A program made the position numbers and the translations under genes. This document shows positions 8,395-37,737 of a stretch of 41,504 nucleotides of DNA, one piece after another; the stretch's first letter is position 1, and every line of letters begins with the position of its first letter. The notes under the pieces are model-generated. The model was not told the origin of the DNA. It searched no databases and saw only the letters and a program-made list of their open reading frames with translations. The DNA is from an uncultured Acidobacteriota bacterium (GTDB lineage Bacteria > Acidobacteriota > Thermoanaerobaculia > UBA5066): contig CAIMWE010000093.1 in NCBI GenBank assembly GCA_903845115.1, forward strand, positions 1-41,504, read 5' to 3'.

Positions 8395-11300
8395 GTGAAA
8401 CGGCCCTTCCTGCCCGTCGCCGCCGTCCTTTCCTTCCTGATCCCGGCCTCCCACGCCGCCGCGGAAGGACCGGTCATCGTGATGCTCGAGCTGAACGACG
8501 AGCCGGCGGTCGAGACCCATCTCCGGGCTCTCGCGTCAGCAAAGGCGACAACGACCCTCTCTCCACAGGCCCAGGCCGCCAGAACTGTCAGAGCCCACCT
8601 CGTCCACCTGGATGCCGTCCAGGAGGCCCTCTCGGCTCGCCTCGCCGGACCCGACCTCGGCGCTCGCCCCCTCTTCCGGCTGCAACGCGCCTATGCCGGC
8701 ATCGCGGTCGAGGTGGACGAGGGCCGCTTCGCCCGGCTCGCCTCCCTGCCGGGGGTCAAGGCCGTCCACCGGATGGCCCCGTACCGCCCGGAGCTTGCGA
8801 CCAGCGTGCCCCTGGCCGGCGCCCCGACGGCCTGGATGGCCGCTTCCAACCTGACCGGGGAGGGGTTCCGCATCGGGATCATCGACACCGGGATCGATTA
8901 CCGCCACGCCGACTTCGGCGGGTCGGGATTCCCCGGCCCGAAGGTGGCCGGCGGGGTCGACCTGGCCGGCGACGCCTACGACGCCGACAGCACGGACCCC
9001 GCGAAGCGGATTCCCCATCCCGACGCCGACCCGATGGACTGCAACGGCCACGGAACCCACGTCGCGGGGATCGCCGCCGGGTACGGCGTCAAGGCAGACG
9101 GGACGAGGTACGCCGGCTCCTACGGCCCCGAGACGCCGTTCGACTCGCTCAGGATCGGACCGGGCGTCGCCCCGGGGGCGAAGCTCTACGCGATCAAGGT
9201 CTTCGGCTGCTCCGGGAGCTCCTACCTGACCGCCGCCGGCATCGAGTGGGCCGTCGACCCGAACGGCGACGGCGACTTCTCCGACCACCTGGACGTCCTG
9301 AACATCTCCATCGGCGCGGCGTACATCGCACCGGACGACCCCGCCGAGGTCGCGGCCGACAACGCCTCGCGGCTCGGCGTCCTCGTCGCGCGAAGCGCCG
9401 GGAACGACGGCGACGCCACCTTCATCTCCGGGGCCCGCAGCTCTCTCGCCGTCGTCACCGCGGCCTCCCTCAACCTCGGCTGGGTCGTCGACGCCATCCG
9501 CGTGGTGTCTCCCGCCTCCCTGGCCGGCCCCAAGAGCGCGACCTTTTCCGCCGCCTTCGCCTGGGACCAGATGACCGCGCCGGTCACGGCCGCACTCGCG
9601 TACCCCACCAGCCAGCCCACCGGCTGCGCCCCCTTCGATTCGACGAGCAGCGCCCTCCTCGCCGGGAAGATCGCCCTTCTCGACTATCCCTCCGGCGGCT
9701 GCGGCTCGGCCACCCGGGTCGGCGCCGCGAAGAGTGCCGGAGCCGTCGGCGCCGTCTTTGCCTACGCCTCCACGCCGCTCGACACCATCCTGAGCGGGAC
9801 CAGCCAGATCCCCGCCGTCCTCGTGGACAGGGCCACCGGCGACGCTCTCAGGTCCGCCTCCCCGTCGGGGGTCACCGTCACGCTCTCGAAGGACCTGCGG
9901 AACGCGAGCCGCGTCGACAACCCCGCCAACGTCGACAGCCTCTCGTCGTTCAGCTCACTCGGTCCGTCCAGCACCGGCATCCTGAAGCCCGACGTCACGG
10001 CTCCCGGTCAGGTCATCTTCTCGGCGGCCGCGCAGACCGGCAGCCAGGGCGTCTCGAACAGCGGGACCTCCATGGCCTCACCCCACGTCGCCGGCGCGCT
10101 CGCGCTTCTCCGCCAGCTCCACCCCACCTGGAGCGTCTCCGAGATCAAGGCGGCTCTCCTCGGCACCGCCGGCCACGACCTCTTCACGCAGCCGGGCCAG
10201 ACGCCTCCCTCGTATTCCCCGTCCCGCGTCGGGACCGGGCGGATCGACCTCGCGGCCGCCTCGGCGGCGACCGTTCTCGCCTACGACGCCGACAACCCCG
10301 GCCTCGTCCACCTCTCGTTCGGGCTCCTGGAGGTGGTGGGCAGCCTCACCGCCACCCGCACCCTGCGGATCTCCAACAAGGGAGTGGGCTCCGTCACCGT
10401 CGACGTCGCCTACCGGCCTTTCGCCGACGTCCCCGGCGTCTCGATCACGTTCCCGGCCGGCACCACGGCCACCGTTCTCGCCGGCGGGACCGTCGACCTG
10501 CCGGTCCGCCTGTCCGCCGTCGCGTCGCAGATGAGGCACAGCCGGGATCCGGCGATGCCCGCAACCCAGCAGGGAGCCCCCCGGCTCTGGCTCAGCGAAG
10601 AGCAGGGCCTCGTCCTCGTCACCCCGCGCGGCGGCTCCCCCCAGCGCGTCGGCCTCTACGCGGCGGCGCGCCCGGCCTCGAGAATGGCCTCCGCGGTGAA
10701 GGCGATCCCGGTGGCCGCCGCGACCGGCACCGCCGACCTCGGCCTCGCCGGGACGGGCGTCGACACCGGCTCGAGCTACCCGACCGACATCACCTCCGCC
10801 GTCACCCCGCTCGAGCTCGTCTACCTCTCGGTCGAGCCCCCGGCCGACCTCTCCGTTCGCGGCTCGGCGGCGCTCAAAGCCATCGGCGTCCGCACCGACG
10901 TCAAGACGATGCTGGCCCAGGGGAAGACCGTCGCCGACGCGACCCTCGCGATCGGCCTCGCCTCCTTCGTCCCCTGGGGGTCGCCGGTCGAGCTGGGGGT
11001 CACGATCCCGATCGACACGAACGGCGACGGCGTCAGCGACTTCTCCCTCTCGACCGCCCAGTACGTCAACAACGGGCAGCCGCTCGACAGCTTCATCGGT
11101 ACCCTCTGTCCGCTCCCGTCGGGGACCTGCACGGTGACCGGCCCGCTGAACAACCAGCTCCCGGAGAGCTTCGACACGGCACTCTTCGGCTCCGACGTCC
11201 TCTGGATCCCCGTCAAGGCCTCCGCCCTGGGCCTCTCCGCGAGCAAGTCGAAGATCTCGTTCCGGCTCCAGACCTCCCGCGTTCAGTCGTCGTACGCCGT

Positions 11301-13347
11301 CCCTTCCCTCACGACCTATGGCCCCTTCACCTTCGACGCGGGCCGCCCCGGTCTCGACGTCACGGGCGGCGACTTCGGATCGGGCGTCTACCGGGATCTC
11401 CCCACGACCACCATTCACGCCTCCTGGGACCGCGAGGCCGCGCTGGCCAACGGCTCGAAGGGGGTCCTCCTCCTGCACCACCACGACGTCTCCAGCACCC
11501 GGGCCGACGTGGTCCCCTTCACCGGCTCCGCCGACCTCGCCGTCGTCCAGGGCGTCGACCCCGACCCGGCGCAGACCGGGCGCAGCCTCGCCGTCACCGC
11601 TACCGTCTCCAACGCCGGACCCTGGTCGGCCTCCGCCGTCACCCTCTCCTTCGCCGTGCCGGCGGGCGCCACCTTCGTGTCGGTCTCACCGAGCCGCGGA
11701 ACCTGTGCCGGGACGACGGCGATCTCCTGCGCGCTCGGCCCGATGACCGGCGGGGCGACCGCCACAGTCAGGATCGTCCTCACGCCGACGACCTCCGGCT
11801 CCCTCGTGACCCGCTTCGACGTCTCGGCACCCGAGCCCGACCCCGACCCGTCCAGCAACTCCTCGACGAAGACGACCGCCGTCCTCGCCACCGCCACCGC
11901 CCGGAGGACGGTCCCGATCCTCCTCGACGTCGTCGGCCAGGGCGGGGCCCGCTTCTCCTCGGAGCTCTTCCTGGCGAACAGCTCCGCCACCGATGCCACC
12001 CTCACGCTCGCCTACACCGGGGCGACTCCCCTGGGCGGAGCCGGAACGGGGAGCGCCACGGTTTCTCTGCCGGCGGGCCGGCAGCTCGTCGTGGCCGACG
12101 CCCTCGCCTACCTGAGAGGCCTCGGCCTCGCCATCCCGCTCGACCCTCCGCAGGGAGGGACGCTCGGCGTCGCGTTCGCCGGGCTTTCTTCCCCAGGTGC
12201 GGCTTTCGCGGGCGCCAGGACGACGGCGCCCTCCGGCAACGGCCGGGCGGGCCTGGCCTACCCGGGGCTCGCTCCGGACTCGGTCGCGACCTCCGTCCTT
12301 CTGTACGGCCTGAGGCAGAACGCCACCGACCGCAGCAACCTGGCCCTCGTCAACGCGGGCACGTCGGCGGTCACGCTCCGCGTCACCCTCTTCTCCGGCT
12401 CGGGCGACCGGACCACCACCGTGCTTCCCGACGTCCCGCTCGCTGCCGGACAGTGGCTGCAGCTCAGCGGCGTCCTCTCCACCGCCTCGTACGCGAACGG
12501 CTACGCCCGCGTCGACCGCGTCGCCGGGACCGCCCCGTTCCAGGCCTACGCCGTCTTCAACGACAACGCGACGAGCGACGGCTCCTTCGTCCCGGCCGTC
12601 CTCCCGGACCGGACCGCCGGATGGCAGCTCCTCCCGGTCCTCGTGGAGACGGGCCTCTACGACAGCGAGCTGGTCCTGACGAACCCGCTCGAGACCCCCG
12701 TCCTCGTCACCCTCCGCTACCAGGAGACCCTGGCCGCCCCGACGGGCTTCACGGGAACCGTCACCGACAGCCTGGCCCCGCACGAGCAGCGGATCGTCCC
12801 CCACGCCCTCGACTACCTGAGGAGCCTCGGCGCCAGGATCGGTCCCAAGGGCGGCAGCTACGCCGGGCCGCTCTTCGTCCTGTTCCGGAGCCGCGACCTG
12901 CCCGCCGACGGTTTCGCCGGCGCCCGCACCTCCTCTCCCGCGCCCGGCGGAGGGCAGTACGGCGTCTTCTACCCGGCGCTGCTCGCAAGCGAAGGAGCGG
13001 CCTCGGAGGCCTGGGTCTACGGCCTGAAACAGGATGCGACCAGCCGGTCGAACCTGGCCGTCGGCAACATGTCGCAGGACGGCGCCCCGATCACCGTGGT
13101 CGTCGACATCTTCGACTCGGCGACCGGGCAGCTCGCCGCCACCACCGACCCGATCTCGCTGGGCCCGGGCGCCCGCCAGCAGCTCAACGCCTTCCTGGGG
13201 AGCTACGGCCTCGCCTCCGGGTACGTCCGGATCCGGAAGACCTCCGGCACTTCGTCCTTCTTCGCCTACGGCGTCGTCAACGACGGGGCGACCTCGGACA
13301 CCGGGACGAACGACGGCAGCTACGTGGGGATGACGGGAGGGGACTGA
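8395..13347 (+). CDS. Secreted subtilisin-like serine protease (S8) with PA insert, DUF11-type domain and tandem C-terminal modules
   Basis: This 1650-residue extracellular protease begins with a Sec signal peptide (residues 1-23) and an inhibitor I9-like propeptide (about 25-130). The S8 catalytic domain carries D164 in IIDTGID, H219 in NGHGTHVAG and S559 in SGTSMASPHVAG, so the triad is intact. The large gap between His and Ser is filled by a protease-associated (PA) insert at about 386-499. Beta-rich regions follow, including a DUF11/CARDB-like domain at about 1045-1162. The last 480 residues are two copies of a roughly 235-residue module (1172-1405 and 1409-1650), also found in the protein at 21257-24097. 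The GTG start has AAGGAGG 11 nt upstream. No transmembrane or sorting anchor is seen at the C terminus. The likely role is degradation of external protein. Confidence 0.93.
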   Translation: MKRPFLPVAAVLSFLIPASHAAAEGPVIVMLELNDEPAVETHLRALASAKATTTLSPQAQAARTVRAHLVHLDAVQEALSARLAGPDLGARPLFRLQRAYAGIAVEVDEGRFARLASLPGVKAVHRMAPYRPELATSVPLAGAPTAWMAASNLTGEGFRIGIIDTGIDYRHADFGGSGFPGPKVAGGVDLAGDAYDADSTDPAKRIPHPDADPMDCNGHGTHVAGIAAGYGVKADGTRYAGSYGPETPFDSLRIGPGVAPGAKLYAIKVFGCSGSSYLTAAGIEWAVDPNGDGDFSDHLDVLNISIGAAYIAPDDPAEVAADNASRLGVLVARSAGNDGDATFISGARSSLAVVTAASLNLGWVVDAIRVVSPASLAGPKSATFSAAFAWDQMTAPVTAALAYPTSQPTGCAPFDSTSSALLAGKIALLDYPSGGCGSATRVGAAKSAGAVGAVFAYASTPLDTILSGTSQIPAVLVDRATGDALRSASPSGVTVTLSKDLRNASRVDNPANVDSLSSFSSLGPSSTGILKPDVTAPGQVIFSAAAQTGSQGVSNSGTSMASPHVAGALALLRQLHPTWSVSEIKAALLGTAGHDLFTQPGQTPPSYSPSRVGTGRIDLAAASAATVLAYDADNPGLVHLSFGLLEVVGSLTATRTLRISNKGVGSVTVDVAYRPFADVPGVSITFPAGTTATVLAGGTVDLPVRLSAVASQMRHSRDPAMPATQQGAPRLWLSEEQGLVLVTPRGGSPQRVGLYAAARPASRMASAVKAIPVAAATGTADLGLAGTGVDTGSSYPTDITSAVTPLELVYLSVEPPADLSVRGSAALKAIGVRTDVKTMLAQGKTVADATLAIGLASFVPWGSPVELGVTIPIDTNGDGVSDFSLSTAQYVNNGQPLDSFIGTLCPLPSGTCTVTGPLNNQLPESFDTALFGSDVLWIPVKASALGLSASKSKISFRLQTSRVQSSYAVPSLTTYGPFTFDAGRPGLDVTGGDFGSGVYRDLPTTTIHASWDREAALANGSKGVLLLHHHDVSSTRADVVPFTGSADLAVVQGVDPDPAQTGRSLAVTATVSNAGPWSASAVTLSFAVPAGATFVSVSPSRGTCAGTTAISCALGPMTGGATATVRIVLTPTTSGSLVTRFDVSAPEPDPDPSSNSSTKTTAVLATATARRTVPILLDVVGQGGARFSSELFLANSSATDATLTLAYTGATPLGGAGTGSATVSLPAGRQLVVADALAYLRGLGLAIPLDPPQGGTLGVAFAGLSSPGAAFAGARTTAPSGNGRAGLAYPGLAPDSVATSVLLYGLRQNATDRSNLALVNAGTSAVTLRVTLFSGSGDRTTTVLPDVPLAAGQWLQLSGVLSTASYANGYARVDRVAGTAPFQAYAVFNDNATSDGSFVPAVLPDRTAGWQLLPVLVETGLYDSELVLTNPLETPVLVTLRYQETLAAPTGFTGTVTDSLAPHEQRIVPHALDYLRSLGARIGPKGGSYAGPLFVLFRSRDLPADGFAGARTSSPAPGGGQYGVFYPALLASEGAASEAWVYGLKQDATSRSNLAVGNMSQDGAPITVVVDIFDSATGQLAATTDPISLGPGARQQLNAFLGSYGLASGYVRIRKTSGTSSFFAYGVVNDGATSDTGTNDGSYVGMTGGD
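11911..13344 (+). repeat. Two tandem copies of a ~235-aa C-terminal module (in the subtilase)
   Basis: Copy 1 (11911 to about 12610) and copy 2 (about 12619 to 13344) share a fixed motif order: a start like PxLLDVV or PVLVETG with SELxLTN/ANS, then L..YLR.LG, a GxRTxxP segment, YGL+Q(N/D)AT.RSNLA, and an ending YGVVNDGATSDGS-type block. The copies are diverged at protein level, so this is an old domain duplication and not a recent DNA repeat. Confidence 0.75.
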
Positions 13348-13381: not shown

Positions 13382-14026
13382 TCAGCCGCCGGGTCTGCTC
13401 GGGGGAAACCGTCTCCCATCCTCCGATTCGGGATGCCTCAGGACCAGGTCGAATGGCTTCCGGCATTCGAACCGGCGAAGCGATGGCCACCAGCAGGCCA
13501 CGGTCCGGCCCCTGAACACGTACTTCACCACCGGCCCCTCTTTGCTCGTGAAGGTCAACCGGACCACCTCGGGCCGCCAGAACGAGCGGACCCAACCGCT
13601 CGCACGCAGGTACCGATAGGGGCGCCAGACGAGATGCAGCTTCGACCTGACCCGCTTCACGAACCTTCTGAAACGGGCGAGGGAAAGGCCAGATCCTCCC
13701 CGGAGGACAGGCCGATACCGGACAGTTCCCTTCTCGATACGCTCGAGGGCGATGACGAGCCCCACGAGGTTCTCCTCGGTGACCAACACCCGATCCGGCC
13801 GTAGGTTGGCATCGCCCTGCGCCACCAACCCGCCTGGCGCCGTTCCCACGATCCGATGGACGATATCCCCAGGCCCCTCGCCGTGCTCGCCCGCGCCGAA
13901 CACCACGACATCGCCAGGATGGATCTCGGAAAGGAGGCAGGAACGGAGGACCAGACAGTCGCCGGACTGGAAGGCGCCGGCCATGCTGCCGCCGAAATAG
14001 AAACGCCGGCTCTCCTGGTCCCTCAT
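13382..14026 (-). CDS. Soluble S24/S26-type signal-peptidase-like protease of the RiPP locus
   Basis: The 214-residue product matches the signal peptidase I fold. S14 sits in FGGSM (catalytic Ser position). GDVVVF follows at 38-43, then DIVHRIVG with H57, then the QGDAN box at 70-74. The residue at the general-base position is His, as in SipW/ER-type signal peptidases, so a Ser/His dyad is expected. There is no membrane anchor; the C-terminal 120 residues are Arg-rich with many aromatics. This suggests a cytoplasmic or peripheral enzyme working on a specific peptide, not general secretion. The ATG at 14026 overlaps the kinase stop (ATGA). As the last gene of the RiPP operon it is a good candidate for leader removal; that role is inferred. 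Confidence 0.8.
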   Translation of the reverse strand: MRDQESRRFYFGGSMAGAFQSGDCLVLRSCLLSEIHPGDVVVFGAGEHGEGPGDIVHRIVGTAPGGLVAQGDANLRPDRVLVTEENLVGLVIALERIEKGTVRYRPVLRGGSGLSLARFRRFVKRVRSKLHLVWRPYRYLRASGWVRSFWRPEVVRLTFTSKEGPVVKYVFRGRTVACWWPSLRRFECRKPFDLVLRHPESEDGRRFPPSRPGG

Positions 14027-14988
14027 CCTCGAGCCAGAACGGAGTCCACGGCTGCCCAATCGAGCGAGTCCGGGCGGAACTGCATCCGATGGAGGGGAAT
14101 CCCGCGGCAGGATTCGTAAACCATGTCGAAAGCCGCGGCCCGAATCGACTTCGGCAGCACCGGCCACACGAACCTGTGTTCGTTCCAGAGGAATTCGATC
14201 ACGTCGGTGAGTCGGATGGACGTCAACGAGAACGCTCGGCTCTTTTCCAGGAGGAAGATCCCTCCAACCGGCGCCTCGACGGGCCCGCTGGAGAAACGTC
14301 CGAGCGGGGTACCGTGAGCCCGGATCTCTCCCTTTTCCCGGCGGAGAATCACCTGGTCATCGCTGAGGACCTTTGACCCCAGGGCGGTGCGGACGACCGT
14401 CGTCTTCCCACCGCCGTCGTGAGCCAGAAAGAGCGCGGCCTTCCCCCCACGGATGACGGCGCCGGCGTGAATCATCACCGCGTCGAAATTCGGGAAGAAC
14501 GGGCACAGCATGTTCCGGTAACGGGCTACGAACTCGTCCCGGTCCGGAGAGACTCCCCCCCCGTCCGGATAGAAGAGATGGGAGTGGTTCGTCGCATGAT
14601 TCCGGAAGATCAGCCGGTTCCAGGCCATCTCGACGAAGGAAAGCTCCGGCGCCCTCAGGCACGAGTCCAGGACCTCGCGCACTCGGGGCTCGCGGAGGAG
14701 CTCGTTCGAGAGCCATCGCCGAGGAATCCCGAGAGCCGTCGCCGCAGCAGATTGCTCCTCTGGCGATAGGGGAGGTGCACACCGAGCATCCGGGTCGAGC
14801 GCGTGAATGCCGAGTTCCACCTCCGCCACCTCGGACGACACCCGGAAAGGCTCGAACAGCTCGTGGTCGAGATGCGGAAGAGCGAAGGCCGACTTCACGC
14901 GGAACGAAACACCCGCGAGCCTGTGCACGCGGGACCAGATGGTAGCCGAGGTCCTCTCGCCGCTGCTTTGCCGGCTTGCCCCGCTCAC
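14023..14988 (-). CDS. HprK-related kinase of the RiPP locus (possible ScmC-like protein)
   Basis: This 321-residue protein has an HPr kinase/PEPCK-like C-terminal half. The P-loop AHDGGGKT is at 189-196 (K195), preceded by the family's IHAGAVIRGGKAALFLA strand region. SDDQVILRR follows, then GTPLGRFSS, a segment often seen in HprK homologues of peptide clusters. The N-terminal 150 residues are poorly conserved. HprK homologues phosphorylate Ser in some RiPPs (the paeninodin lasso-peptide kinase is the known precedent), so Ser phosphorylation of the adjacent precursor is plausible. The cassette's conserved ScmC position could correspond to this gene, but I am not certain. The GTG at 14988 directly follows the precursor stop; no strong ribosome binding site is seen, so the start is uncertain. 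Confidence 0.75.
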   Translation of the reverse strand: MSGASRQSSGERTSATIWSRVHRLAGVSFRVKSAFALPHLDHELFEPFRVSSEVAEVELGIHALDPDARCAPPLSPEEQSAAATALGIPRRWLSNELLREPRVREVLDSCLRAPELSFVEMAWNRLIFRNHATNHSHLFYPDGGGVSPDRDEFVARYRNMLCPFFPNFDAVMIHAGAVIRGGKAALFLAHDGGGKTTVVRTALGSKVLSDDQVILRREKGEIRAHGTPLGRFSSGPVEAPVGGIFLLEKSRAFSLTSIRLTDVIEFLWNEHRFVWPVLPKSIRAAAFDMVYESCRGIPLHRMQFRPDSLDWAAVDSVLARG

Positions 14989-15264
14989 CTACTGCTGGTG
15001 AGCTCCGGACTTGCAGATCGTCGCAGCGGAACCGCCGAAATTGCATGACGGATCCAAATGAAATGAGCCTGAGCTACACGCGGACGTGTCCGCAGCCGAC
15101 CCCGTACTGCAAGGACTAGCAAGGAACGCTGGCCCGGCGACACAGCTGTGGTAAGGAACGCTGCCTGGCGTACACGACCCTTCGGTCTGCTGCCCCGCAG
15201 CTCCGCCGGAGTTGAGAGACTTCGCTACCGGCGGTTCGTAGATGCGGCGTCTGTTCATCGGCAT
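14989..15264 (-). CDS. Candidate RiPP precursor peptide with six regularly spaced CxxG units
   Basis: The 91-residue product has a basic leader start (NRRRIYEPPVAKSLN at 4-18) and a Gly/Ala/Gln linker (20-29). The core has cysteines at 31, 41, 52, 63, 74 and 84, spaced 10, 11, 11, 11 and 10 residues. Each Cys is followed by x-x-Gly (G34, G44, G55, G66, G77, G87). The core is also rich in Ser and Ala. There is no signal peptide or membrane segment. The ATG at 15264 shares its A with the stop of the upstream radical SAM gene (TGATG) and has GGAGG 6 nt upstream. Codon third positions are visibly less GC-rich than in neighbours. Its position between the radical SAM genes and the kinase supports a substrate role. 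The modification chemistry is unknown; thioether cross-links at Cys are one possibility. Confidence 0.82.
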   Translation of the reverse strand: MPMNRRRIYEPPVAKSLNSGGAAGQQTEGSCTPGSVPYHSCVAGPAFLASPCSTGSAADTSACSSGSFHLDPSCNFGGSAATICKSGAHQQ

Positions 15265-16430
15265 CACTGGCCTCCATCTCCGCCTTCGGCCCTCAGCGAG
15301 GCCGGAGTTCGTCTGCTTTCCGGAAAAAGCCCGAGACCAGAGGCGACATCGCAGAACCCGAAGGCAACGCTTAGTTTACCACCAAGGGAGTAGTTACTCG
15401 CAACGCACGAGCCGAGGCAGATATCCCGATGAAGGCACTCCCCGCAGACCCCTTCCAGCTCGTGTGGGATCTGTCTCCGGAGTCGCTGGAGACCAGGGCT
15501 CGATCGCCAAACTTCTCCTAGATCGTCGACGTCCAGGTGCCCGTAGACGAGCTCGGGCAAGGACGAGCCCACCCCGCAGATCGACAGCTCACCCGTGGCG
15601 AGGACCCCCAGGATATGGAGGACCGCGCAGTGGGCATTCGGCTCCCTCAACAGCCGGCGAATCGACCAGAACGCCATCGGGAAATCCGGATGGATGCTGA
15701 TCCCGGTGTAAGGCACCACGTCTTTTTCGAGGTGGCGGAGGAACTCGAGGGCGCGGGGGACGGAGAGCCCTTCCTCCCGCGAGAAGCGCTCCCCTCTCCC
15801 CATCTCCTGGATGATGTTGAACTTGACCGATCCGCAACCCAGCTTTTCAGCCAGACGGACCACTTCGGCGGCCTCCGAGACGTTCCCCTGGTGGAGAGAG
15901 CAGATCACCTGCGGACGGAACGAGGCATCGACGAGGGCCTTGATGCCGGCCACGGCTCTGTCGAAGCTCCCGGGGACCATCCGGAGCGCCTCGTGGGTCT
16001 CCGCCTTGGCGCCGTCCAGGCTGACGGAGATCGTCCCGGCCTTTCCCGTGTCCCGCAGGAACTCGGCCAGAGACCGGTCGATCAGCGTGCCGTTCGTCTC
16101 CATCCAGAACGGTACCCCCAGCCCGGCGACCAAGCTGACGAGTTCGCGAAACCGGGGATGCAGGGTCGGCTCGCCGCCCGTCAGCTTCACCTGAGAAAGA
16201 CCGACCGTCTTGGCCTCGCGGATGGCCTTTTCCACGTGCTCGAGCTTCACGAACGTTCCGTTGAGACCGTTCGGGGAGAACTGGGGCGTGATCCAGCAGT
16301 GCCGGCACGGAAGATTGCACGAGCCGGAAACGTAGATGTAAAGGGCCGTCAACGGCGGCGTGCCGGCTGGAAAGGCCAGGGGCGCCGCCTGCCGAGGCGC
16401 TCTAACGGAGGACGGGGAGTCTGGTGGCAT
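15264..16430 (-). CDS. scmF: Radical SAM/SPASM peptide maturase, ScmF-type
   Basis: This 388-residue PqqE-like enzyme has a CxxxCxxC cluster (C38, C42, C45 in GSCNLPCRHCWI). It has the TIM-barrel markers VKLTGGEPTLHP and METNGTLI, then SVSLDGAKAETHEALR. The C-terminal SPASM domain holds two further cluster Cys sets (CAVLHILGVLATGELSICG and GVCGECLHRDICLGSC). The SVKFNIIQEMGRGERF segment and the overall wording match the ScmF enzyme of the SynChlorMet cassette as I remember it. It would modify the ribosomal peptide through a 5'-deoxyadenosyl radical. The ATG at 16430 overlaps the end of the ScmE-like gene by 29 bp, and the precursor gene starts at its stop codon. Confidence 0.88.
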   Translation of the reverse strand: MPPDSPSSVRAPRQAAPLAFPAGTPPLTALYIYVSGSCNLPCRHCWITPQFSPNGLNGTFVKLEHVEKAIREAKTVGLSQVKLTGGEPTLHPRFRELVSLVAGLGVPFWMETNGTLIDRSLAEFLRDTGKAGTISVSLDGAKAETHEALRMVPGSFDRAVAGIKALVDASFRPQVICSLHQGNVSEAAEVVRLAEKLGCGSVKFNIIQEMGRGERFSREEGLSVPRALEFLRHLEKDVVPYTGISIHPDFPMAFWSIRRLLREPNAHCAVLHILGVLATGELSICGVGSSLPELVYGHLDVDDLGEVWRSSPGLQRLRRQIPHELEGVCGECLHRDICLGSCVASNYSLGGKLSVAFGFCDVASGLGLFPESRRTPASLRAEGGDGGQ

Positions 16431-17532
16431 GCGGGCTCTCTACCTCCATCAGGAAACGGCGGTAGCAGTCCTCTGGATTCGCCCTGTTGAGCTCGCCGGT
16501 CAGCTGGTGGGCCAGGCCGGGACAGCTTCCGTTGCAGTACGAGCTCCACTCGCACTGCTGACAGCCCTCGACCTCCTTCATCGGGATCGACCTCCGGGCC
16601 CGCATCGCCTGCATCGTCGGGTGCTCGCGCCAGATCTCCGCGAGGGAGTCGGTCTGGATCTTGCCCATCACCAGATCCGGAAGCATGGCGCACGGAACGA
16701 TGCTCCCGTCGTGAAGGACGTCGATCATCGAGTAGACGCATCCGCAGGCCGAGAGGTTTCCCATGCTCCAACCGTGAGCCAGCTCCCCGGTACGCGCGGC
16801 CAGCTCCATCTCGGCGTACATCCTGAGCTTCGCCTGCGGGCCTGCCGAGGCCGTCAGCCGCCCCGGATACCTCCGGGCGAGCCGGCCCATGGTTTCCATC
16901 GCCCGCGCTTTTTCGCCCGACGTCAGCGCCACGTCGTCGGCAGCGTGACAGCCGGCGCCCACCGGCATGGCGTCATTGGTCCCGATGGACGAGACGCCGA
17001 CGTCCTCCAGGAGGAGCCGAGCCAGGTTCTCCAGATCGTCCAGGTTGTGACGGTTGATCGTCACCCGGACCGTCACCGGCAAGCCGGCTCCCTTCAGCAG
17101 CCGGAGCCCACGGATGGCCCGATCGAAGCTCTTCGGGCGGCTCGCGTCGTGGACCTCGGCCGTCGACCCGTCGATCGAGACCTGGATGTAGTTGAGACGG
17201 AGGCGCCGCTTTCCCACGTCGAATTGCCCGACGACCTCCTCGTCCACCAGGGTTCCGTTCGTCAGCAGGCAGTAGCGCAGGCGGTTCTGGATCACGCCGT
17301 CGATCAGGACGAAGAGATCCGGGCGGGTCAACACCTCGCCTCCGGAGAGCGTGACATCCATCACCCCCATCTCCGTCAGCTGCCGAAAGAACGTCAGCCA
17401 CGCTTCTGTCGGAAGGTCCTTCAGCGCCTCCATCTCGTCGGCATAGAAGCAGTACTTGCAGCGGAGGTTGCACTTCCCCGTCAGGGCGATATTGACGCTC
17501 TTGGGCGTCGACGCCAGACCGGAGCGCCCCAT
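16402..17532 (-). CDS. scmE: Radical SAM/SPASM peptide maturase, ScmE-type
   Basis: This 376-residue enzyme has C21, C25 and C28 in TGKCNLRCKYCFYADEM, then VMDVTLSGGEVLTRPD, LLTNGTLV and IQVSIDGSTAEVHDASRP. A SPASM region (about 245-350) carries SACGCVYSMIDVLHDG and GCQQCEWSSYCNGSCPG. The run of conserved wording (KRRLRLNYIQVSIDG, VTVRVTINRHNLDDLE, LLLEDVG) is that of ScmE in the SynChlorMet cassette as I recall it. The partner ScmF-like enzyme overlaps its 3' end by 29 bp; the two probably act in sequence or as a complex on the same peptide. The ATG at 17532 lies 12 bp after the PqqD-like stop, with GAAGG 9 nt upstream. Confidence 0.88.
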   Translation of the reverse strand: MGRSGLASTPKSVNIALTGKCNLRCKYCFYADEMEALKDLPTEAWLTFFRQLTEMGVMDVTLSGGEVLTRPDLFVLIDGVIQNRLRYCLLTNGTLVDEEVVGQFDVGKRRLRLNYIQVSIDGSTAEVHDASRPKSFDRAIRGLRLLKGAGLPVTVRVTINRHNLDDLENLARLLLEDVGVSSIGTNDAMPVGAGCHAADDVALTSGEKARAMETMGRLARRYPGRLTASAGPQAKLRMYAEMELAARTGELAHGWSMGNLSACGCVYSMIDVLHDGSIVPCAMLPDLVMGKIQTDSLAEIWREHPTMQAMRARRSIPMKEVEGCQQCEWSSYCNGSCPGLAHQLTGELNRANPEDCYRRFLMEVESPHATRLPVLR

Positions 17533-17544
17533 TCCTTTCGGCCT

Positions 17545-17844
17545 TCAGCCCTTCCTGAGTCCCAGAAATCCGCCGGAGACCATTTCCGCCAGGAACTTCT
17601 CCACTTCATTCGAGACGGCGTCGTCGGGGACGTCTTCGAACTCGCCCCGGATCGCATCCACCAGCTCCGGCCTTCCTCGAGTTCCGTCGCTCTTCCGCCA
17701 GAGGAACAGCGCCGTCGCATTCAACACCCGGACGTCGTTCGTGTCGGGATTGAAGAGCAACCCCCCGTCCTCGTCCTCTTCCCGGAGGACGACGTCGGGA
17801 TTTCTCACATAACCCACGTTCTCGACAAATCCTTCAGCGGTCAT
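17545..17844 (-). CDS. scmD: PqqD-like peptide-binding chaperone, ScmD-type
   Basis: The 99-residue product is a RiPP recognition element of the PqqD family. It would bind the precursor leader and present it to the radical SAM enzymes. The signature order is NPDVVLREEDEDGGLLFNPDT, then VLNATALFLW, then a helical C-terminal half ending VEKFLAEMVSGGFLGL. The REED-x-LFNPDT wording fits the Scm-cassette PqqD relative. It is the first gene of the leftward RiPP operon. Two ATGs are possible: 17850 touches GAGGG directly, while 17844 has GAGGG at 6 nt and was preferred. Confidence 0.87.
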   Translation of the reverse strand: MTAEGFVENVGYVRNPDVVLREEDEDGGLLFNPDTNDVRVLNATALFLWRKSDGTRGRPELVDAIRGEFEDVPDDAVSNEVEKFLAEMVSGGFLGLRKG

Positions 17845-17865
17845 CTCCATCCCTCAAGTGCCTCT

Positions 17866-17871
17866 ATTCTA
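17866..17871 (-). promoter_or_regulatory. Candidate -10 element of the RiPP operon
   Basis: On the minus strand TAGAAT (one mismatch to TATAAT) would place transcription near 17859, giving a leader of about 15 nt before the ATG at 17844. No convincing -35 is seen. The whole divergent gap to the ABC exporter is only about 120 bp, so both promoters must lie within it. Confidence 0.3.
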
Positions 17872-17968
17872 CAGGACACGTTCGGAGTTCTTGCGCCAGG
17901 GAGGCCGGTCCGCCGCCACTCGAATCCACGGTTCGTCCCGGCTGCGGCCCCGGTCGACGTCGATCAGA

Positions 17969-19810
17969 ATGACAGAGCCGATGCCCACGACCGCTCATCG
18001 TCAGGAACCGCTTCGCGAGAAAGCTCGAAGGGTCCTCCGGCTGGGCCGCGCCTTCCGGCTCGCGTGGGAGGCGGCCCCAGGGCTCGTCGTGGCCCAGGCT
18101 GCGCTCCAGACCCTCTCGGGGGCCCTCCCTCTCGCCGGCCTCCTCTTCACCAAGCTCGCCATCGACGCGGTGGTCGCCGGCGCCGCCGCGGGCGGGGGGC
18201 CGACCGCCTTCCGCCACGCGCTCGGCTGGCTCGTCGCAGCGGCGGCGGTGACCATCGCCTCCTCGGCTCTCGGGAACCTGACCGGCGTCGTGTCGAACGC
18301 CCAGTCCCAGATCGTCACCGACCACGTCCTGGACGGTCTGCACAGGAGGTCCGTCGAGATCGACCTCCGGTTTTACGAGGATCCGGCCTACCACGACACT
18401 CTCCACCGCGCGCTGCAGGAAGCTCCCTCCCGGCCATCGCGGATCGTGGGCGAGCTGTCCCAGCTCGCCCAGAGCTTCGTGGGCCTCGTGGCGATGGGAG
18501 GATTCCTCGCGACTCTCCGGTGGTGGATGACCGGCCTCCTTCTCCTGGCGGCTATCCCCGGTATCGCCGTTCGACTCGGCTTTTCCCGGAAACTGCTCGC
18601 CTTTCGCCGCGAGGTGACCCCCGACGAGCGGCGTGCCTGGTACCACCACTGGCTGATGACCGGCCCCGCCAGCGCCGCTGAATTGCGCCTCCTCGGCCTC
18701 GGCGCGCTGTTCCGGGGGCGTTCGACGGAGATTCGCCGCCGCCTGCGCGAGAAGAGCCTCTCCCTCGGGAGGAGGAAGGCCGCGGGAGAGGCCCTCGCCC
18801 AGGCCGCCGGTTCCACGGTCGTCTTCGGCGCCTTCGGCTTCCTCGCCTACCAGGCCGTCGGGGGAGCGTTCACGGTCGGAGCCTTCGTCGCCTACTTCCA
18901 GGCATTCCAGCGAGGGCTCGGCGCCCTGCAGGGACTCCTCGGCAGCCTGGCCGGTCTCTGGGAGGACAACCTCTTCCTGTCCGACTTCGACGCCTTTCTC
19001 GCGATCACGCCGAACGTGGTCGAACCGGTCCAGCCCGTTCCCTTCCCACGCCCCCTCACCCGTGGCCTCGCCCTCGAATCGGTCAGCTTCACCTACCGCG
19101 GCTCCGACTCTCCCGCCATCTCGGAGCTCAGCGTCTGCATCCGGCCCGGGGAGATCGTCGCCCTCGTCGGCCCCAACGGCTCGGGCAAGACGACACTCGT
19201 CAAGCTCCTCCTTCGACTCTACGACCCCGACGCGGGACGGATCACCGCGGACGGCGTCGACCTCCGTTCCCTCGCCACCGCTGACCTCCGCCGAAGCTTC
19301 GCCGTCTTGCCGCAGGACTTCGGCCGCTATGCCTTCACGGCTCGCGAGAACGTCTGGCTCGGGAACACGGAAGCTCCCTCGGATTCGCCCCGGGTCCTCG
19401 AGGCCGCGGAGCTCTCGGGCGCCCGGGAAGAGGTCGAAGCGCTCCCGAACCGCTGGGAGACGGTCCTGGGTTCCTGGTTCGGCGACGGCCGCGACCTCAG
19501 CCCCGGACAGTGGCAGAAGATCGCCCTCGCAAGGACCCTCTTCCGCAACGCCCCGATCGTCGTCCTCGACGAACCCTCGTCGGCACTGGACCCTCTCGCC
19601 GAACGCGAGCTGTTCGACCGGTTCCGGACCCTCGCGGCGGGGAGGACGGCCCTCTTCATCAGTCACCGGTTCTCGACCGTCCGGATGGCCGACCGGATCC
19701 TCGTCCTGGACCAGGGGCGCCTGGTCGAGGACGGGACCGATGAAAAGCTGCGGTCCCTTGGCGGCCTCTACGCGCGGATGAGGGCCGCTCAGGGAGAGGT
19801 TCTCGGCTAA
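17969..19810 (+). CDS. ABC exporter (fused membrane and ATPase domains), probable RiPP exporter
   Basis: This 613-residue half-transporter is of the exporter type. The membrane domain (about 40-360) has several hydrophobic spans, starting with the helix around LVVAQAALQTLSGALPLAGLLF. The ATPase domain has Walker A (LVGPNGSGKTTL, K407), a signature reading LSPGQ (510-514) in place of LSGGQ, Walker B (IVVLDEPSSALD) and the H-loop (FISHRF). No C39 peptidase domain precedes the membrane part, so it cannot cleave a double-Gly leader itself; the S26-type enzyme may do that. It is divergent from the RiPP operon across about 120 bp, so export of the finished peptide is the natural guess. The ATG at 17969 lacks a clear ribosome binding site; the ATG at 17981 is the alternative. 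The frame open from 17858 is unsupported. Confidence 0.85.
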   Translation: MTEPMPTTAHRQEPLREKARRVLRLGRAFRLAWEAAPGLVVAQAALQTLSGALPLAGLLFTKLAIDAVVAGAAAGGGPTAFRHALGWLVAAAAVTIASSALGNLTGVVSNAQSQIVTDHVLDGLHRRSVEIDLRFYEDPAYHDTLHRALQEAPSRPSRIVGELSQLAQSFVGLVAMGGFLATLRWWMTGLLLLAAIPGIAVRLGFSRKLLAFRREVTPDERRAWYHHWLMTGPASAAELRLLGLGALFRGRSTEIRRRLREKSLSLGRRKAAGEALAQAAGSTVVFGAFGFLAYQAVGGAFTVGAFVAYFQAFQRGLGALQGLLGSLAGLWEDNLFLSDFDAFLAITPNVVEPVQPVPFPRPLTRGLALESVSFTYRGSDSPAISELSVCIRPGEIVALVGPNGSGKTTLVKLLLRLYDPDAGRITADGVDLRSLATADLRRSFAVLPQDFGRYAFTARENVWLGNTEAPSDSPRVLEAAELSGAREEVEALPNRWETVLGSWFGDGRDLSPGQWQKIALARTLFRNAPIVVLDEPSSALDPLAERELFDRFRTLAAGRTALFISHRFSTVRMADRILVLDQGRLVEDGTDEKLRSLGGLYARMRAAQGEVLG

Positions 19811-19841
19811 GTCCTGGAAGCCGGGCCGAGCTGGGGGCGGG

Positions 19842-21125
19842 TCAACAATCGTCCCGGCCCTTCCCGTTCCTCGCCATGGCGCATGTCCGAAGGCGTGCCA
19901 GCAAACGATCGGCCTGCTTGACGCTGACGTCCACCGGATGCTCCTCCCCCCCGGGCGCCAGGCGACCGGAAGCGAGCCTCATGGCCTCCGGTCCGTAGGC
20001 TCTGGTAAGGTCCCACACCCTCCGAACATATCCGACAGCCATGCGGGGAGACCTCGCGGGAATCCCGTAGAACGCGGCCATCTCCCTTGGCGAAGGGAAT
20101 AGCCTCCGCATGAACAGCCCCAGCTTCGATGAGGCGGAGCCTTCCAGGAAGACTCTCCTGACGTTGTCCGATACGGCTGCGTACGGTCGCGGCCCCGCAA
20201 GGACGAGGCCCTGCACGTCGCGGACGATCCCCTCGTCCATTCCTTCGGGGAGAACGAGCTCCAGCACGCCTTCGGGCACGGCGGCCCCGGCGAGGTCGCG
20301 CGCCATCGACAGGAATACGAACAGCTCTCCTGGCGCTCCCCACAGCCTCGCTCGCTCGGCGAGAGCCGGCCAGTCGAGCCGGGCTCCGTGCGTAGCCAGG
20401 GTTGCGGCCAGGTCGAAGAGCGTCCGCGGGCCGAGCTCGAAGCGGTGATGGACCGAATCGTGGACGACGAGGTGGAGGAGGAGGTCTTCCACGCAGAGGC
20501 CACGGGCGGCGCGCCCCGCCACCTCGAAAGGGATCGACCGGGTGAAAAGGCCAGCCACGTCTGCCTGGACACTCGAACCCGGCCGTACGAGATCCCAGTG
20601 CAGCTCGAGGCACGACCCATCGGCGCGCAGCAGCTGGGGAGCCTGGTCCTGCACCAACCGAAGATCCTCGAGAAGGCACGGACCATTCGGCATCCATCCT
20701 GCCAGTCCAAGGGCAGCGATCGCCTCTGCCACCTTCTCGAACGGAACGAGGAGATCCAGGTCCCCCATGGGGCGGGCGCCCGGCCGCTCGAAGACGGCAT
20801 GAGCGAGATACCCGCCCTTCAGGACGACGACGGAGCACTTCTCTCTCCCGAGTACCGACAGCGCCTCGCAAAGGGCTCTCTCTGCCAGAAGCTGCCGTCC
20901 GGCAGAGACGAGGAACGCCTCTCTCAGCTCCTGGCGGACCTGGGCAGGCACCCGCTCGAAATCAACCCGCTTCTGGAGCCGAACGTAGAGCAGCGGCGCC
21001 AGCTTCGTCTCACGGGCTCTGAGGATCAGCGCCGGCCACTCGTTCTCCGCCGGCCATTCAGCCGTGGGCCGCTCCAACGAAGCCAGGACACGGCAGAGCC
21101 GTTCAGCAAGCGGGATCGCGTCCAT
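19842..21125 (-). CDS. Nucleotidyltransferase family protein (NTP_transf_5 type) beside the RiPP operon
   Basis: This 427-residue member of the nucleotidyltransferase fold family is often found in RiPP clusters. The signature is VVVLKGGYLAHAVF followed by GARPMGDLDLLV (GDLDLLV at 121-127), where the Asp pair should bind metal. LCVEDLLLHLVVHDSVHHRF and FDLAATLATHG then match the family's middle part. Homologues accompany some lasso-peptide and other peptide clusters; their reaction is mostly undefined, and transfer of a nucleotide or sugar nucleotide moiety is the structural expectation. It converges on the exporter gene (31-bp gap). The start is uncertain: an in-frame ATG at 21197 gives 24 more residues but runs across a strong hairpin, so 21125 was preferred. 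Neither has a clear ribosome binding site. Confidence 0.82.
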   Translation of the reverse strand: MDAIPLAERLCRVLASLERPTAEWPAENEWPALILRARETKLAPLLYVRLQKRVDFERVPAQVRQELREAFLVSAGRQLLAERALCEALSVLGREKCSVVVLKGGYLAHAVFERPGARPMGDLDLLVPFEKVAEAIAALGLAGWMPNGPCLLEDLRLVQDQAPQLLRADGSCLELHWDLVRPGSSVQADVAGLFTRSIPFEVAGRAARGLCVEDLLLHLVVHDSVHHRFELGPRTLFDLAATLATHGARLDWPALAERARLWGAPGELFVFLSMARDLAGAAVPEGVLELVLPEGMDEGIVRDVQGLVLAGPRPYAAVSDNVRRVFLEGSASSKLGLFMRRLFPSPREMAAFYGIPARSPRMAVGYVRRVWDLTRAYGPEAMRLASGRLAPGGEEHPVDVSVKQADRLLARLRTCAMARNGKGRDDC

Positions 21126-21256: not shown

Positions 21257-24097
21257 TCAGGGAATTACGTACGGCACGAAAGCCCCATCGCCGCTGCGGT
21301 CCCCGGGGTTCGCCCCGTCGTTCACGACGGCGTAGGAGATGAAGGGGTTCTGACCGGTCATGCGGGTCACCCTCGCGTATCCGAGGCTGACGGAGGGCGA
21401 GATCTGATTGAGGACCTGGTCGAACTGCATCCACTCGAAAGGCCGGAGGGTGGCCGTCGATTGTCCGGCCTTCGCCCCCGTGACGCCGTCGAAAGTCTCG
21501 ATCAGGTAGTCGCTCGACGAGGTGTCCAGCTCGCCGGTGTTCACGATGGCCAGGTTCGCGCGGTTCTCGCTGTCCTTGCGGAGGATTGAAAGCCAGGCGC
21601 TTCCCGTCGCGTTGTACCCGTTGTACGCGCCCTGGCAGAAGACGCCGTAGTACCCGACCGGTCCGGGGTTCGTCACCCGCCCCGAGATGGCGATTCCCTG
21701 GGTGTCGAGGCCTGGTCCAGGGACCAGGACGAACACGGCTCCCAGAAAGGCCGGGCCAACCGGCCCGACGCCGGGGGCGTGCATGTCACGAAGGACCTGG
21801 ACGAAGCTCGGAAGCTGCAGCTGCGAGTGCGGCGGCAGGGTGAACGAGACGGTCGTGGAGCCGCCCGTGATCGCCTTCGCGACGTACATGATCGGCACCG
21901 ACTTCGCCACGTCCCCGACATTCGTCAGGATGACCTCGGTGATGTACGACCCGGTCTCCACGGCCACCGGCAGCGTGAGCCCGGCCTTGCAGGTCTGGCA
22001 GAGGATCGGGAACTCGTTGATCGGGAGAATGTAGGACCCGTCAGAGTTGAGGTTGTCGTTGATGACCGCGTAGGTCCAGAACGGGGCCGTCCCGCCCACC
22101 TTTTCGACCTTCACGTAGCCCTGGACGGCATTCGGGGCGATGTCCGTGAGCGCCACCTGGACCCAGCCGCCGGGGCTGATGGTTACCTGGTAGGGCGGAG
22201 AGATCGGTCCCGACCCGTCCCCGGCGTAGTACGTCGCCTTGAGAGTGATGTCTCCCGAACCCGTGACCCCGGCATTCTCGAACGCGACGTTCGTCCGGTC
22301 CTGCGCGTTCTGCCTGAGACCCACGAGGAACCCGAGAGTCGTGAGGAGCTTCGCCGCCGGCACTCCCGCGTAGGCGAGTCCCGCGCGGCCATTCGGCGAG
22401 GTCGGCGGGACAGGAGTCGTGGTACGGACCGCGATTCCCGCGTCGCTGGTCGCCGAGAGGCCGCTGAAGCTCGCCAGGATCGTCCCGAGCGCATCGGCGT
22501 TGCTCGGGATCGCGAGTCCCTTCTGTCTCAGGTAGGCGATCGCGTCCGGGATGAGCGTCTGCTTCCCGGCCGCCAGCGAGTCCGTGACGGAGCCGGCGCC
22601 TTGCCCCAGGGAGGGCACGTACTGGTAGACGATCGAAGCGTCCAGGGGCCCGCTATTCGTGACGGTCATCTCGGACGAGAAGACCGAGTTGCCCTTCCCG
22701 GCGACCGAAAGGACCACCGGGACGAAGAGGGTCGTGTTGACCGTCCCTGAAGAACTGCAGTTGCCGTACAGGTAGCAGGCCCCTGCGACGTCGTCCGCTC
22801 CGAGGCCGGTCCCCCTCTGGATGGAGAGGAACGTGACCATGATCGCGTCAGCGTCGTCGGTCGGGATCGTGTCCGTCGCATTGATGGACAGGTCGGCGTT
22901 CGAAAGGCCCAGGGTGGTCCCGATCATCTGGGTGATGATGTTCGTGTAGACGTTCGCCGGATACGCGGTGGTGCCGCAGCTCGCCTTGCGGACCCATCCC
23001 ACCCCGGCGGCGATCGACTTCCAGCTCTGGCCCTTCCACGTGTGGGTGGAGCCGTCCGTGAGCCAGGACCCGATCCCCAGGACGCCTCCCAACGTCAGCG
23101 GACAGGAGATCGGGGACCCCTGGAATTCCGGCTGGCTCAGGTCGTCCAGGTAGAACTTGATCTGTCCGCGCGGCGGGTACGCCGACGGGTCGCCGCAGCA
23201 TTCGTAGGTGACGCAGTCCACTCCGCGGGAGAGGTTGATGTTCGCCTGCGGAGCCGTGTTGTCCCAGAACTGCATCGCCTGGGTGAACTGGGCGAGGCCG
23301 CCTCCGTCGACGCCACCCTCCCCGAGGGTCGACGCGTCCTCGTCGCACCACCAGAGCGAGGCGCTGGCGTTGTTCGTCCAGCGAGCCGAGATGGGGTTCG
23401 CGCACGTCATCGTGCCGTCCGCGCACCACCTGCTGTCCCAGAGCGGGGAGTACGGCCCGGACGCGCCGGCGGGGCGCAGGTCCGTTCGATTCGCGGCGAG
23501 GTAGCTGGGCGCCGCGTTCGACAGGGAGCCTACCGGCGCGCTCCGGACGAAGGCGACGAAGTTGCCGAAGTCCCGGAGGGGTTCGTGCTCGATCGCGACC
23601 ACTCCGGCCCGGTTGATCCGCGAGGAGGGAGGCGTCGCAGCCCCGCGGAACACCATCCTCGTCGCATAGAGGCGGCCCTTCCCGTCCTGGACCACGTCGA
23701 AGGCGCCGAGCGACTGTTCCACCACGCCGTAGGAGCCGTCCTCCCTTGGCGAGAGAGCGAGGAGATATTGCCTTCCCGCCGCGAACCGCGGAACGCCGGG
23801 CACCACCAGCTCGGTGCCGTCCGGCAGCTTGCCGCCGATGACGCCGACCTCCACCTGCTCCGGCAAAGTTCCGCGCAGGATGTCGACGACCTTGAAGGTG
23901 CTCCGCGTCTCCGGCAGCTTGCCCGGAAGCGCCAGAACGGTGGAACCCAGGCTCTCGACGACGGCCATCGCGGGCGCCCGCCTCACGAGCTCGTCGTCCG
24001 CGATCGGAGCGTAGACCGCAGCCTGAGACGGAACGGCCTGCGCGAGGCACACGAGCACGCCAGCGGTCAGAGCCAAGCGCGTTCCCTTAAGCCTCAT
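21257..24097 (-). CDS. Secreted matrixin-like pseudo-metalloprotease with tandem C-terminal modules
   Basis: The 946-residue product starts with a signal peptide (1-27, ending SQAA). A beta-rich N-terminal domain (about 28-170) precedes a region (about 230-445) whose motif order is that of matrixins: AMQFWDNTAPQANINLS, GGVLGIGSW, then IITQMIGTTLGLSN, then DDADAIM. At the zinc-binding consensus HExxHxxGxxH this protein reads Q390, M391, T394, G397, N400. All ligands and the catalytic Glu are gone while the Gly and hydrophobic frame remain, so it should be inactive as a protease. Residues 454-700 and 702-946 are two copies of the module shared with the subtilase at 8395-13347. The ATG at 24097 has GAGGAGG 6 nt upstream. 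A role in binding or surface structure is inferred. Confidence 0.85.
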   Translation of the reverse strand: MRLKGTRLALTAGVLVCLAQAVPSQAAVYAPIADDELVRRAPAMAVVESLGSTVLALPGKLPETRSTFKVVDILRGTLPEQVEVGVIGGKLPDGTELVVPGVPRFAAGRQYLLALSPREDGSYGVVEQSLGAFDVVQDGKGRLYATRMVFRGAATPPSSRINRAGVVAIEHEPLRDFGNFVAFVRSAPVGSLSNAAPSYLAANRTDLRPAGASGPYSPLWDSRWCADGTMTCANPISARWTNNASASLWWCDEDASTLGEGGVDGGGLAQFTQAMQFWDNTAPQANINLSRGVDCVTYECCGDPSAYPPRGQIKFYLDDLSQPEFQGSPISCPLTLGGVLGIGSWLTDGSTHTWKGQSWKSIAAGVGWVRKASCGTTAYPANVYTNIITQMIGTTLGLSNADLSINATDTIPTDDADAIMVTFLSIQRGTGLGADDVAGACYLYGNCSSSGTVNTTLFVPVVLSVAGKGNSVFSSEMTVTNSGPLDASIVYQYVPSLGQGAGSVTDSLAAGKQTLIPDAIAYLRQKGLAIPSNADALGTILASFSGLSATSDAGIAVRTTTPVPPTSPNGRAGLAYAGVPAAKLLTTLGFLVGLRQNAQDRTNVAFENAGVTGSGDITLKATYYAGDGSGPISPPYQVTISPGGWVQVALTDIAPNAVQGYVKVEKVGGTAPFWTYAVINDNLNSDGSYILPINEFPILCQTCKAGLTLPVAVETGSYITEVILTNVGDVAKSVPIMYVAKAITGGSTTVSFTLPPHSQLQLPSFVQVLRDMHAPGVGPVGPAFLGAVFVLVPGPGLDTQGIAISGRVTNPGPVGYYGVFCQGAYNGYNATGSAWLSILRKDSENRANLAIVNTGELDTSSSDYLIETFDGVTGAKAGQSTATLRPFEWMQFDQVLNQISPSVSLGYARVTRMTGQNPFISYAVVNDGANPGDRSGDGAFVPYVIP
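21260..22738 (-). repeat. Two tandem copies of the shared ~240-aa C-terminal module (in the matrixin-like protein)
   Basis: Copy 1 covers about 22738-22000 and copy 2 about 21994-21260. Both show the same order as in the subtilase: FVPVVLSVAG or TLPVAVETG with xSEMTVTN or TEVILTN, IAYLRQKGL or VQVLRDMHA, RTTTP or RVTNP, GLRQNAQDRTNVA or RKDSENRANLA, and a final FxxYAVxNDxxNxDG block. This unites two otherwise unrelated secreted proteins of the window. Confidence 0.75.
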
Positions 24098-24179
24098 CCT
24101 GAACCTCCTCATTCCAGTTACCACATGCTCGAAACGTACAGCGAGGGCCACCCGGCCCCTGCGCTCCCCGAGCGGTCAT

Positions 24180-25069: not shown

Positions 25070-25975
25070 TCAGCCCAGGATCCTCTTCTTGTAGTACTCG
25101 AGAAAAGGACTCGAAACGAGCTTCGGCACGCACTTTTCCATGAGACGCCGGGCCTTTTCCACTGATCCTGTCTCAAAAAGAGACACGGCCGCGTAGAACA
25201 TCGACCCTTCTTCCCCATCCCTGAATGGCTCCAGCTGCGATATTTGCCTTTCGCCCGTTTCGAAGCTTTTGCTCAGTACGGATGATTCGAGAACCATCTT
25301 CCTGACCTCGCGGCTCGAGGGGTCGCGCTCCAGCAGGACGAGCGAAGCGGCGAGCGCCTTGTCGAAACTCTTTTTCTGCAGCAGCTTCTGCACGTCGGCC
25401 TGCGAGAGGGCCTGCTCCGGAGGAGCCCTTTCCACGGGCACCGCTACGAGCGGGCTCGGCGCGGGTGAGGGCTCGCGTCGCTGGGTCGCAACCGTTGCCG
25501 GTGCCTGCAACGGCGCAGGTGCCGTCCTTGCCATTGCTGGCGATGGCTGCGCCGACGGAACGGAGAGCGTCGCCGCCAGGGTCTCGAACCCCTTGCTCTC
25601 CTTCACGAGCTTCACGAAACTGGTCCGGACAGGCAGCTCGAGGTCCACCTGCTTCCAGACTCCGAAGCGTGTTTCGATCTCCCTGAACCGCCGCAGCGTC
25701 TCCTCCACGTCCGCGATCCGGCCCGCCCCCTTCTGGGCCAGCGCCAGCCGCGCTGTGCATTCCAGGAGGGCCGGCGGCCGATCCAGAAGACCGAAGCAGC
25801 CGATCCGGAACTCGTCGGCCGCTTCCTGGAACCGGCCCGCATTGAAGGCTTCCTTGCCCGAGGCGATCCGGACGACGTAGAAGGGGTCGATCCCCGCCGC
25901 TGACGCCCGTAGAATGAAGGACACTCCGAGCAAGAGGCCGAACACGAGATGCAGCCGCGACGTATTCACAGACAC
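25070..25975 (-). CDS. Exported TPR-like helical protein, function unknown
   Basis: The 301-residue product has a signal sequence (LHLVFGLLLGVSFILRASA). A helical, TPR-like stretch follows (GKEAFNAGRFQEAADEFRIGCF and ALLECTARLALAQKGAGRIADVEETLRRF). A Pro/Ala-rich linker (about 155-205) comes next, then a second helical repeat region (ADVQKLLQKKSFDKALAASLVLLERDP and on to the C terminus). This layout suggests a periplasmic scaffold or adaptor protein. It is divergent from the polymerase gene at 25949, and the two 5' ends overlap by 27 bp, which is unusual. GTG codons at 25975 (AGGAG at 9 nt) and 25969 (GAAGG at 5 nt) are both workable starts. The link to polysaccharide export is by position only. 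Confidence 0.75.
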   Translation of the reverse strand: MSVNTSRLHLVFGLLLGVSFILRASAAGIDPFYVVRIASGKEAFNAGRFQEAADEFRIGCFGLLDRPPALLECTARLALAQKGAGRIADVEETLRRFREIETRFGVWKQVDLELPVRTSFVKLVKESKGFETLAATLSVPSAQPSPAMARTAPAPLQAPATVATQRREPSPAPSPLVAVPVERAPPEQALSQADVQKLLQKKSFDKALAASLVLLERDPSSREVRKMVLESSVLSKSFETGERQISQLEPFRDGEEGSMFYAAVSLFETGSVEKARRLMEKCVPKLVSSPFLEYYKKRILG

Positions 25976-32946: not shown

Positions 32947-32968
32947 CGCTCTCCCTCGCCCTCCGAGC

Positions 32969-36183: not shown

Positions 36184-36196
36184 CGTGCTCAAGGTT

Positions 36197-37417: not shown

Positions 37418-37424
37418 CCTGCCT

Positions 37425-37637: not shown

Positions 37638-37737
37638 GTTCGCCAGGAGCGACCCAGACGCGACGACCAGCTCTCCTACCGCTTACTTTCTCAAGATGCT
37701 TCCGCCGCCATCCTCCACCCGCACGGTGGCATCCAGG

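Follow-up and report, generated by a model that had tools for sequence, protein, structure and literature searches.

Clusters for linear polyphosphorylated peptides (LPPs) were described in 2026 and are stated to be restricted to Bacillota; they modify a precursor whose YxxP motif is bound by the RRE, and experiments showed that an HprK-like kinase phosphorylates Ser and that the leader is cleaved in an RRE-dependent manner by LppS, a SpI-type, signal-peptidase-like protease (S29, H68, D93) (PMC13381572). The paeninodin kinase and the pseudomycoidin nucleotidyltransferase modify lasso peptides in a similar manner (PMC9266682). The SCM (SynChlorMet) cassette is covered in NCBIfam by models TIGR04248–TIGR04252, for ScmA, ScmC, ScmD, ScmE and ScmF; our literature search found nothing specific on SynChlorMet or on ScmE/ScmF. 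We analysed a 41,504-nucleotide contig of an uncultured Acidobacteriota bacterium (hereafter, the window), for which an SCM-type cassette with an extended set of tools and a plausible precursor gene had been proposed. That proposal assumed that no SCM precursor had been identified, a premise that fails because NCBIfam already holds TIGR04252, 'SCM_precur_ScmA'.

ORF calls place the ScmD-like, ScmE-like, ScmF-like, Cys-rich, HprK-like and S26-like genes in one tightly packed minus-strand operon of overlapping or abutting ORFs, with a divergent ABC exporter and an adjacent nucleotidyltransferase, all at the coordinates and on the strands that the original prediction gave (Table 1). The scmF stop codon is overlapped by the precursor ATG (TGATG), which has gatGGAGG a few bases ahead of it, and the GTG start of the kinase gene immediately follows the precursor stop codon.

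Table 1 Features of the SCM-type locus, in window coordinates
Feature	Position	Strand	Evidence
S26 peptidase, archaeal/SipW-type, predicted leader peptidase	13382-14026	-	TIGR02228 45 bits, E 7.8e-12
HprK-like kinase, positional equivalent of ScmC, GTG start	14023-14988	-	Alignment to ScmC-passing orthologues; fold
Predicted precursor peptide (91 aa; leader MPMNRRRIYEPPVAKSLNSGGAAGQQTEG; six CxxG units in the core)	14989-15264	-	Counterparts by position and sequence at no fewer than 39 of the 59 scmF loci
ScmF-like radical SAM/SPASM enzyme	15264-16430	-	TIGR04251 339.3 bits; 7-Cys SPASM pattern Cx2Cx5Cx3C..C
ScmE-like radical SAM/SPASM enzyme	16402-17532	-	TIGR04250 387.6 bits; Pfam Radical_SAM and SPASM
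ScmD-like PqqD/RRE protein, predicted precursor-leader binder	17545-17844	-	TIGR04248 65 bits; Pfam PqqD 46 bits
MsbA-type ABC exporter, divergent	17969-19810	+	Top NCBIfam match MsbA-related; Pfam ABC_tran
NTP_transf_5 nucleotidyltransferase	19842-21125	-	PF14907 163 bits

The assignment to the SCM families held in part. ScmD, ScmE and ScmF were the best NCBIfam families for the three proteins, and no other radical SAM family outscored ScmE or ScmF for the two enzymes: the runner-up families reached 126 bits for the ScmE-like and 122 bits for the ScmF-like enzyme, leaving margins of 261 and 217 bits, respectively. However, all three scores fell below the curated cut-offs (65 bits against 100 for ScmD, 388 against 400 for ScmE and 339 against 400 for ScmF). 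The kinase scored 14 bits directly against the ScmC model, TIGR04249 (cut-off 125), and the precursor ORF did not match the ScmA model, TIGR04252 (49 positions, cut-off 35 bits). In Pfam, the three enzymes appear as plain PqqD and Radical_SAM/SPASM domains; the SPASM cysteines of ScmF are invariant in the ScmF alignment. Identities as heme-synthesis or PQQ enzymes were considered for ScmE and ScmF and rejected, the scores being far below those of the SCM models.

A canonical SCM locus with the same layout as the window (L031) lies above all cut-offs (ScmF 521, ScmE 554 and ScmD 105 bits). The ScmF proteins of L031, L036 and L046 score 521–582 bits, and the kinases of L027, L033 and L038 score 188–248 bits on the ScmC model; since canonical loci thus pass the ScmF and ScmC cut-offs, the published models grade without a break into this family and its layout. 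We conclude that the locus is, as judged from its sequence, a divergent SCM-type RiPP cluster. We chose this label because the SCM models are the best families yet all scores lie below the curated cut-offs, and since none of the curated cut-offs is reached we stop short of formal SCM membership, although phylogeny, gene order and best-family results point there.

A genome scan with the ScmF alignment yielded 55 scm loci; a further 25 radical SAM loci, more distantly related, served as controls. The counts given below refer to a survey set of 59 scmF loci, spanning some 17 phyla, compared with the 25 control loci. In a maximum-likelihood ScmF tree, 57 scm rows were split from seven controls by a branch with 100/100 support, and the window ScmF grouped with canonical ScmF. 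It falls into a separate six-member clade (100/100), whose five other loci come from Chloroflexota, Aminicenantes and Acidobacteriota. In L013, L022, L024, L026 and L060 the genes are ordered as in the window. A second scm locus in the same genome (L009 7400-8910, contig C127) carries scmD and scmE, with an ScmE score of 521 bits, above the cut-off, and ends at a contig end ahead of scmF; a related genome also has two scm loci, one of them in the window gene order. Elsewhere, PqqD and ScmE are fused in a single ORF (L014 1818-3356), and a comparable fusion may account for the long ScmE ORFs in L053 and L073. Among the matches listed in a plasmid search there were just distant radical SAM proteins, with <30% identity.

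The ORF that the original prediction named as the precursor contains six Cys, each within a CxxG, and matched no family in NCBIfam or Pfam. It aligns over its length with the five nearest precursors, and its own frame scored 220 and 193 against the same-place ORFs in L022 and L024, whereas other frames scored no more than 37. It was also the sole match when the whole genome was scanned with a precursor-family profile, with an E-value of 3.9e-15 that is optimistic because the ORF is itself among the profile's training sequences; a TIGR04252 search of the same genome returned noise only. The GC3 of the ORF, 0.66, is below the 0.78–0.88 of its neighbours, and codon-position GC, which supports the small ORF less clearly than it does the neighbours, was not used as evidence.

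Similar Cys-rich ORFs are present in most homologous loci: at least 39 of the 59 scmF loci have, at or near scmF, a small ORF whose leader has YxxP early on and whose CxxG repeats lie about 10 residues apart, and no such ORF was found in the 25 control loci. A strict precursor miner identified precursors in 32 of the 59 scm loci; it found none in the 25 controls, in reversed sequence or in five shuffles, and returned 0–2 loci when set to other C-x(n)-G registers. A chance ORF was rejected by the frame-specific homology and these control tests. We conclude that assignment of the ORF as the putative precursor, in the role of ScmA, is strongly supported; it corresponds to ScmA in predicted role, leader and CxxG core, yet is missed by TIGR04252. 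The ORF might instead encode a structural or regulatory Cys-rich peptide that travels with the cassette and is not its substrate. Conservation of an RRE-type YxxP leader alongside a variable repeat core, across some 17 phyla, argues against this, as do the precursor duplicates in L071 and L050, which have the leader, not the core, in common, and we consider a non-substrate role highly improbable.

Across 44 curated precursors, the Tyr of YxxP is present in 43 and the Pro in all 44, with Leu favoured at +8. Gly occupies position +3 from Cys in 210 of 248 Cys units (85%), where about 50 would be expected after shuffling, although this set was chosen partly by CxxG and the comparison of scm with control loci matters for that reason. 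Spacing between Cys residues peaks at 10 (81), 11 (41) and 9 (22). Only 11 of the 44 precursors matched TIGR04252 at E-values up to 1, the best reaching 28.7 bits and none exceeding the 35-bit cut-off, so the predicted precursor family is far larger than TIGR04252 detects. About one third of scm loci are without a recognised precursor, partly owing to contig ends. The putative precursor family is widespread.

Ahead of the first Cys, A-x-[GA] occurs in 22 of the 44 precursors against 12.8 expected, a modest signal that would fit the -3/-1 preference of signal peptidases. In L071 (10220-11157), two tandem precursors have near-identical leaders ending in AYAQ and quite different repeat cores, an indication that leader and core meet at an AxA site. 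The precursors of L035 and L068 are very Cys-rich, with 14–16 Cys and CC or CGC motifs, and are possibly a different core type.

The combination of a Cys-rich precursor with radical SAM/SPASM maturases is also found in sactipeptides and ranthipeptides. In contrast to those systems, the RRE here is discrete rather than fused, and the CxxG repeats lie about 10 residues apart; moreover, the NCBIfam models for AlbA, SkfB, StsB and PapB gave no high-scoring match to the window enzymes. Judged by enzyme class, the two radical SAM/SPASM enzymes would install radical-based crosslinks, one per CxxG unit, most likely Cys thioethers. In the papers searched, we found no description of an SCM cluster product, so the thioether step is proposed by analogy only. 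The pair could instead make another Cys- or Gly-directed change, such as epimerisation, carbon–carbon bonds or Cys conversion, in a cluster otherwise as described. ScmE and ScmF are about equally far from the sactipeptide, ranthipeptide, PqqE, mycofactocin and heme-synthesis enzymes, none of which exceeds about 126 bits, and the frequent Gly at +3 is also compatible with such chemistry. On the other hand, SPASM enzymes acting with Cys-rich cores are generally known, so far, mostly as thioether makers (for example, PMC8188230 and PMC12093266), and we regard non-thioether chemistry as a minority possibility. A further alternative is that the peptide is a cofactor precursor, as for PQQ or mycofactocin, and that the cluster makes a small redox cofactor. 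The enzymes are indeed PqqD/PqqE-like, and the mycofactocin and PqqE models reach 112–113 bits on ScmE. However, the 4–9 CxxG units of the repeat cores, the several paralogous precursors per scm locus and the MsbA-type exporter fit an exported peptide better than a cofactor derived from one residue pair, making this alternative unlikely.

The remaining proteins, read in the original prediction as an extended toolset of this locus, are all present as described, but they are not peculiar to it. Profile searches detected the HprK-like kinase in 38 of the 59 scm loci and 0 of the 25 controls, the S26 peptidase in 31 and 0, the ABC exporter in 38 and three, and the NTP_transf_5 protein in 21 and 0, these counts being taken from a set in which many of the 59 scm loci are cut by contig ends. 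The same set is also found in LPP and paeninodin-type clusters (PMC13381572). Separately, we observed this finishing module alongside different radical SAM enzymes.

The kinase matches the HprK_rel_A and ScmC models weakly. It aligns by profile with the orthologues that pass the ScmC cut-off, with invariant GK and DD motifs, and by this homology through canonical loci it corresponds to ScmC. An AlphaFold model (pLDDT 91) has the PEPCK/HprK-superfamily fold (Z 14.5); a search of solved structures with the kinase sequence gave no meaningful match. When the model was compared using Foldseek and VIA, PEP carboxykinases ranked first and HPr kinase was absent among the matches listed, so the narrower HprK assignment draws on the weak model matches and the link to ScmC. 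In the S26 protein, S14, H57 and D72 are invariant in 12 homologues, and the residue types are those that LppS requires; a sequence search against solved structures returned weak SEC11 matches only.

A discrete RRE, an HprK-like kinase, an archaeal-type signal peptidase, an MsbA-like exporter, an NTP transferase and a YxxP leader are common to LPP clusters and the locus described here, and the five proteins that together define an LPP cluster (RRE, HprK kinase, SpI protease, NTP transferase and MsbA exporter; PMC13381572) all occur in it. Because these are the same parts, SCM clusters look, by analogy, like LPP-type machinery to which two radical SAM enzymes have been added; the main text of the LPP paper does not mention radical SAM enzymes (PMC13381572). 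The leaders differ: of the LPP motif YxxPxVLxHQxIxFETxxS, the window leader YEPPVAKSLNSGG has just YxxP. Lasso clusters of the paeninodin/pseudomycoidin type likewise combine an HprK-type kinase, a nucleotidyltransferase, a discrete RRE and a [Y/W]xxP leader (PMC9266682), but a macrolactam synthetase and a B2 cysteine protease are absent among the eight cluster proteins here, and the core here is Cys-rich.

Taking these comparisons together, we consider that the locus probably represents a divergent SCM-type RiPP cluster, with a precursor that would be modified, phosphorylated, cleaved and exported. By analogy with LPP and lasso systems, the YEPP motif of the leader would be bound by the PqqD-like RRE, ScmD, which would present the repeated CxxG core to both radical SAM/SPASM enzymes. 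The HprK-like kinase, in the role of ScmC, would phosphorylate Ser or Thr of the precursor, with the NTP_transf_5 protein possibly attaching another group. Leader removal, close to the A-x-G that precedes the first Cys, would then fall to the S26 signal-peptidase-like protease, and release of the product to the ABC exporter; the LPP and lasso systems also serve as the model for phosphorylation and cleavage. The directly supported parts of this pathway are the gene content, the precursor family with its motif statistics, the conserved active-site residues and the kinase fold.

With moderate confidence, we extend this reading to SCM clusters at large as a widespread RiPP class, present in bacteria and in methanogenic archaea, whose decapeptide CxxG repeat would be crosslinked once per unit by the radical SAM pair, and the product also phosphorylated and released by an LPP-type kinase/signal-peptidase module, with the orphan ScmC being a peptide kinase. 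The orphan cassette, familiar until now chiefly through family models, would thereby become a testable biosynthetic pathway, with a set of precursors from many phyla that reaches far beyond the existing ScmA model. ScmC would gain a likely biochemical role, as a peptide kinase, the S26 protein would be named as the predicted leader peptidase of SCM clusters, and radical SAM RiPPs would be tied both to phosphorylated lasso systems and to the recently described polyphosphorylated-peptide systems.

Two secreted proteins, a subtilase and one without an assignment, flank the cluster (window 8395-13347 and 21257-24151) and have a duplicated C-terminal domain in common (37% over 491 residues). Nearby is a polysaccharide locus (window 25949-39519) with an O-antigen ligase, Wzz and a tyrosine-kinase-type ATPase, glycosyltransferases and a carbamoyltransferase. 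A polysaccharide-type neighbourhood has likewise been reported for LPP and paeninodin clusters, and LPP clusters are also alike in often lying beside capsule genes.
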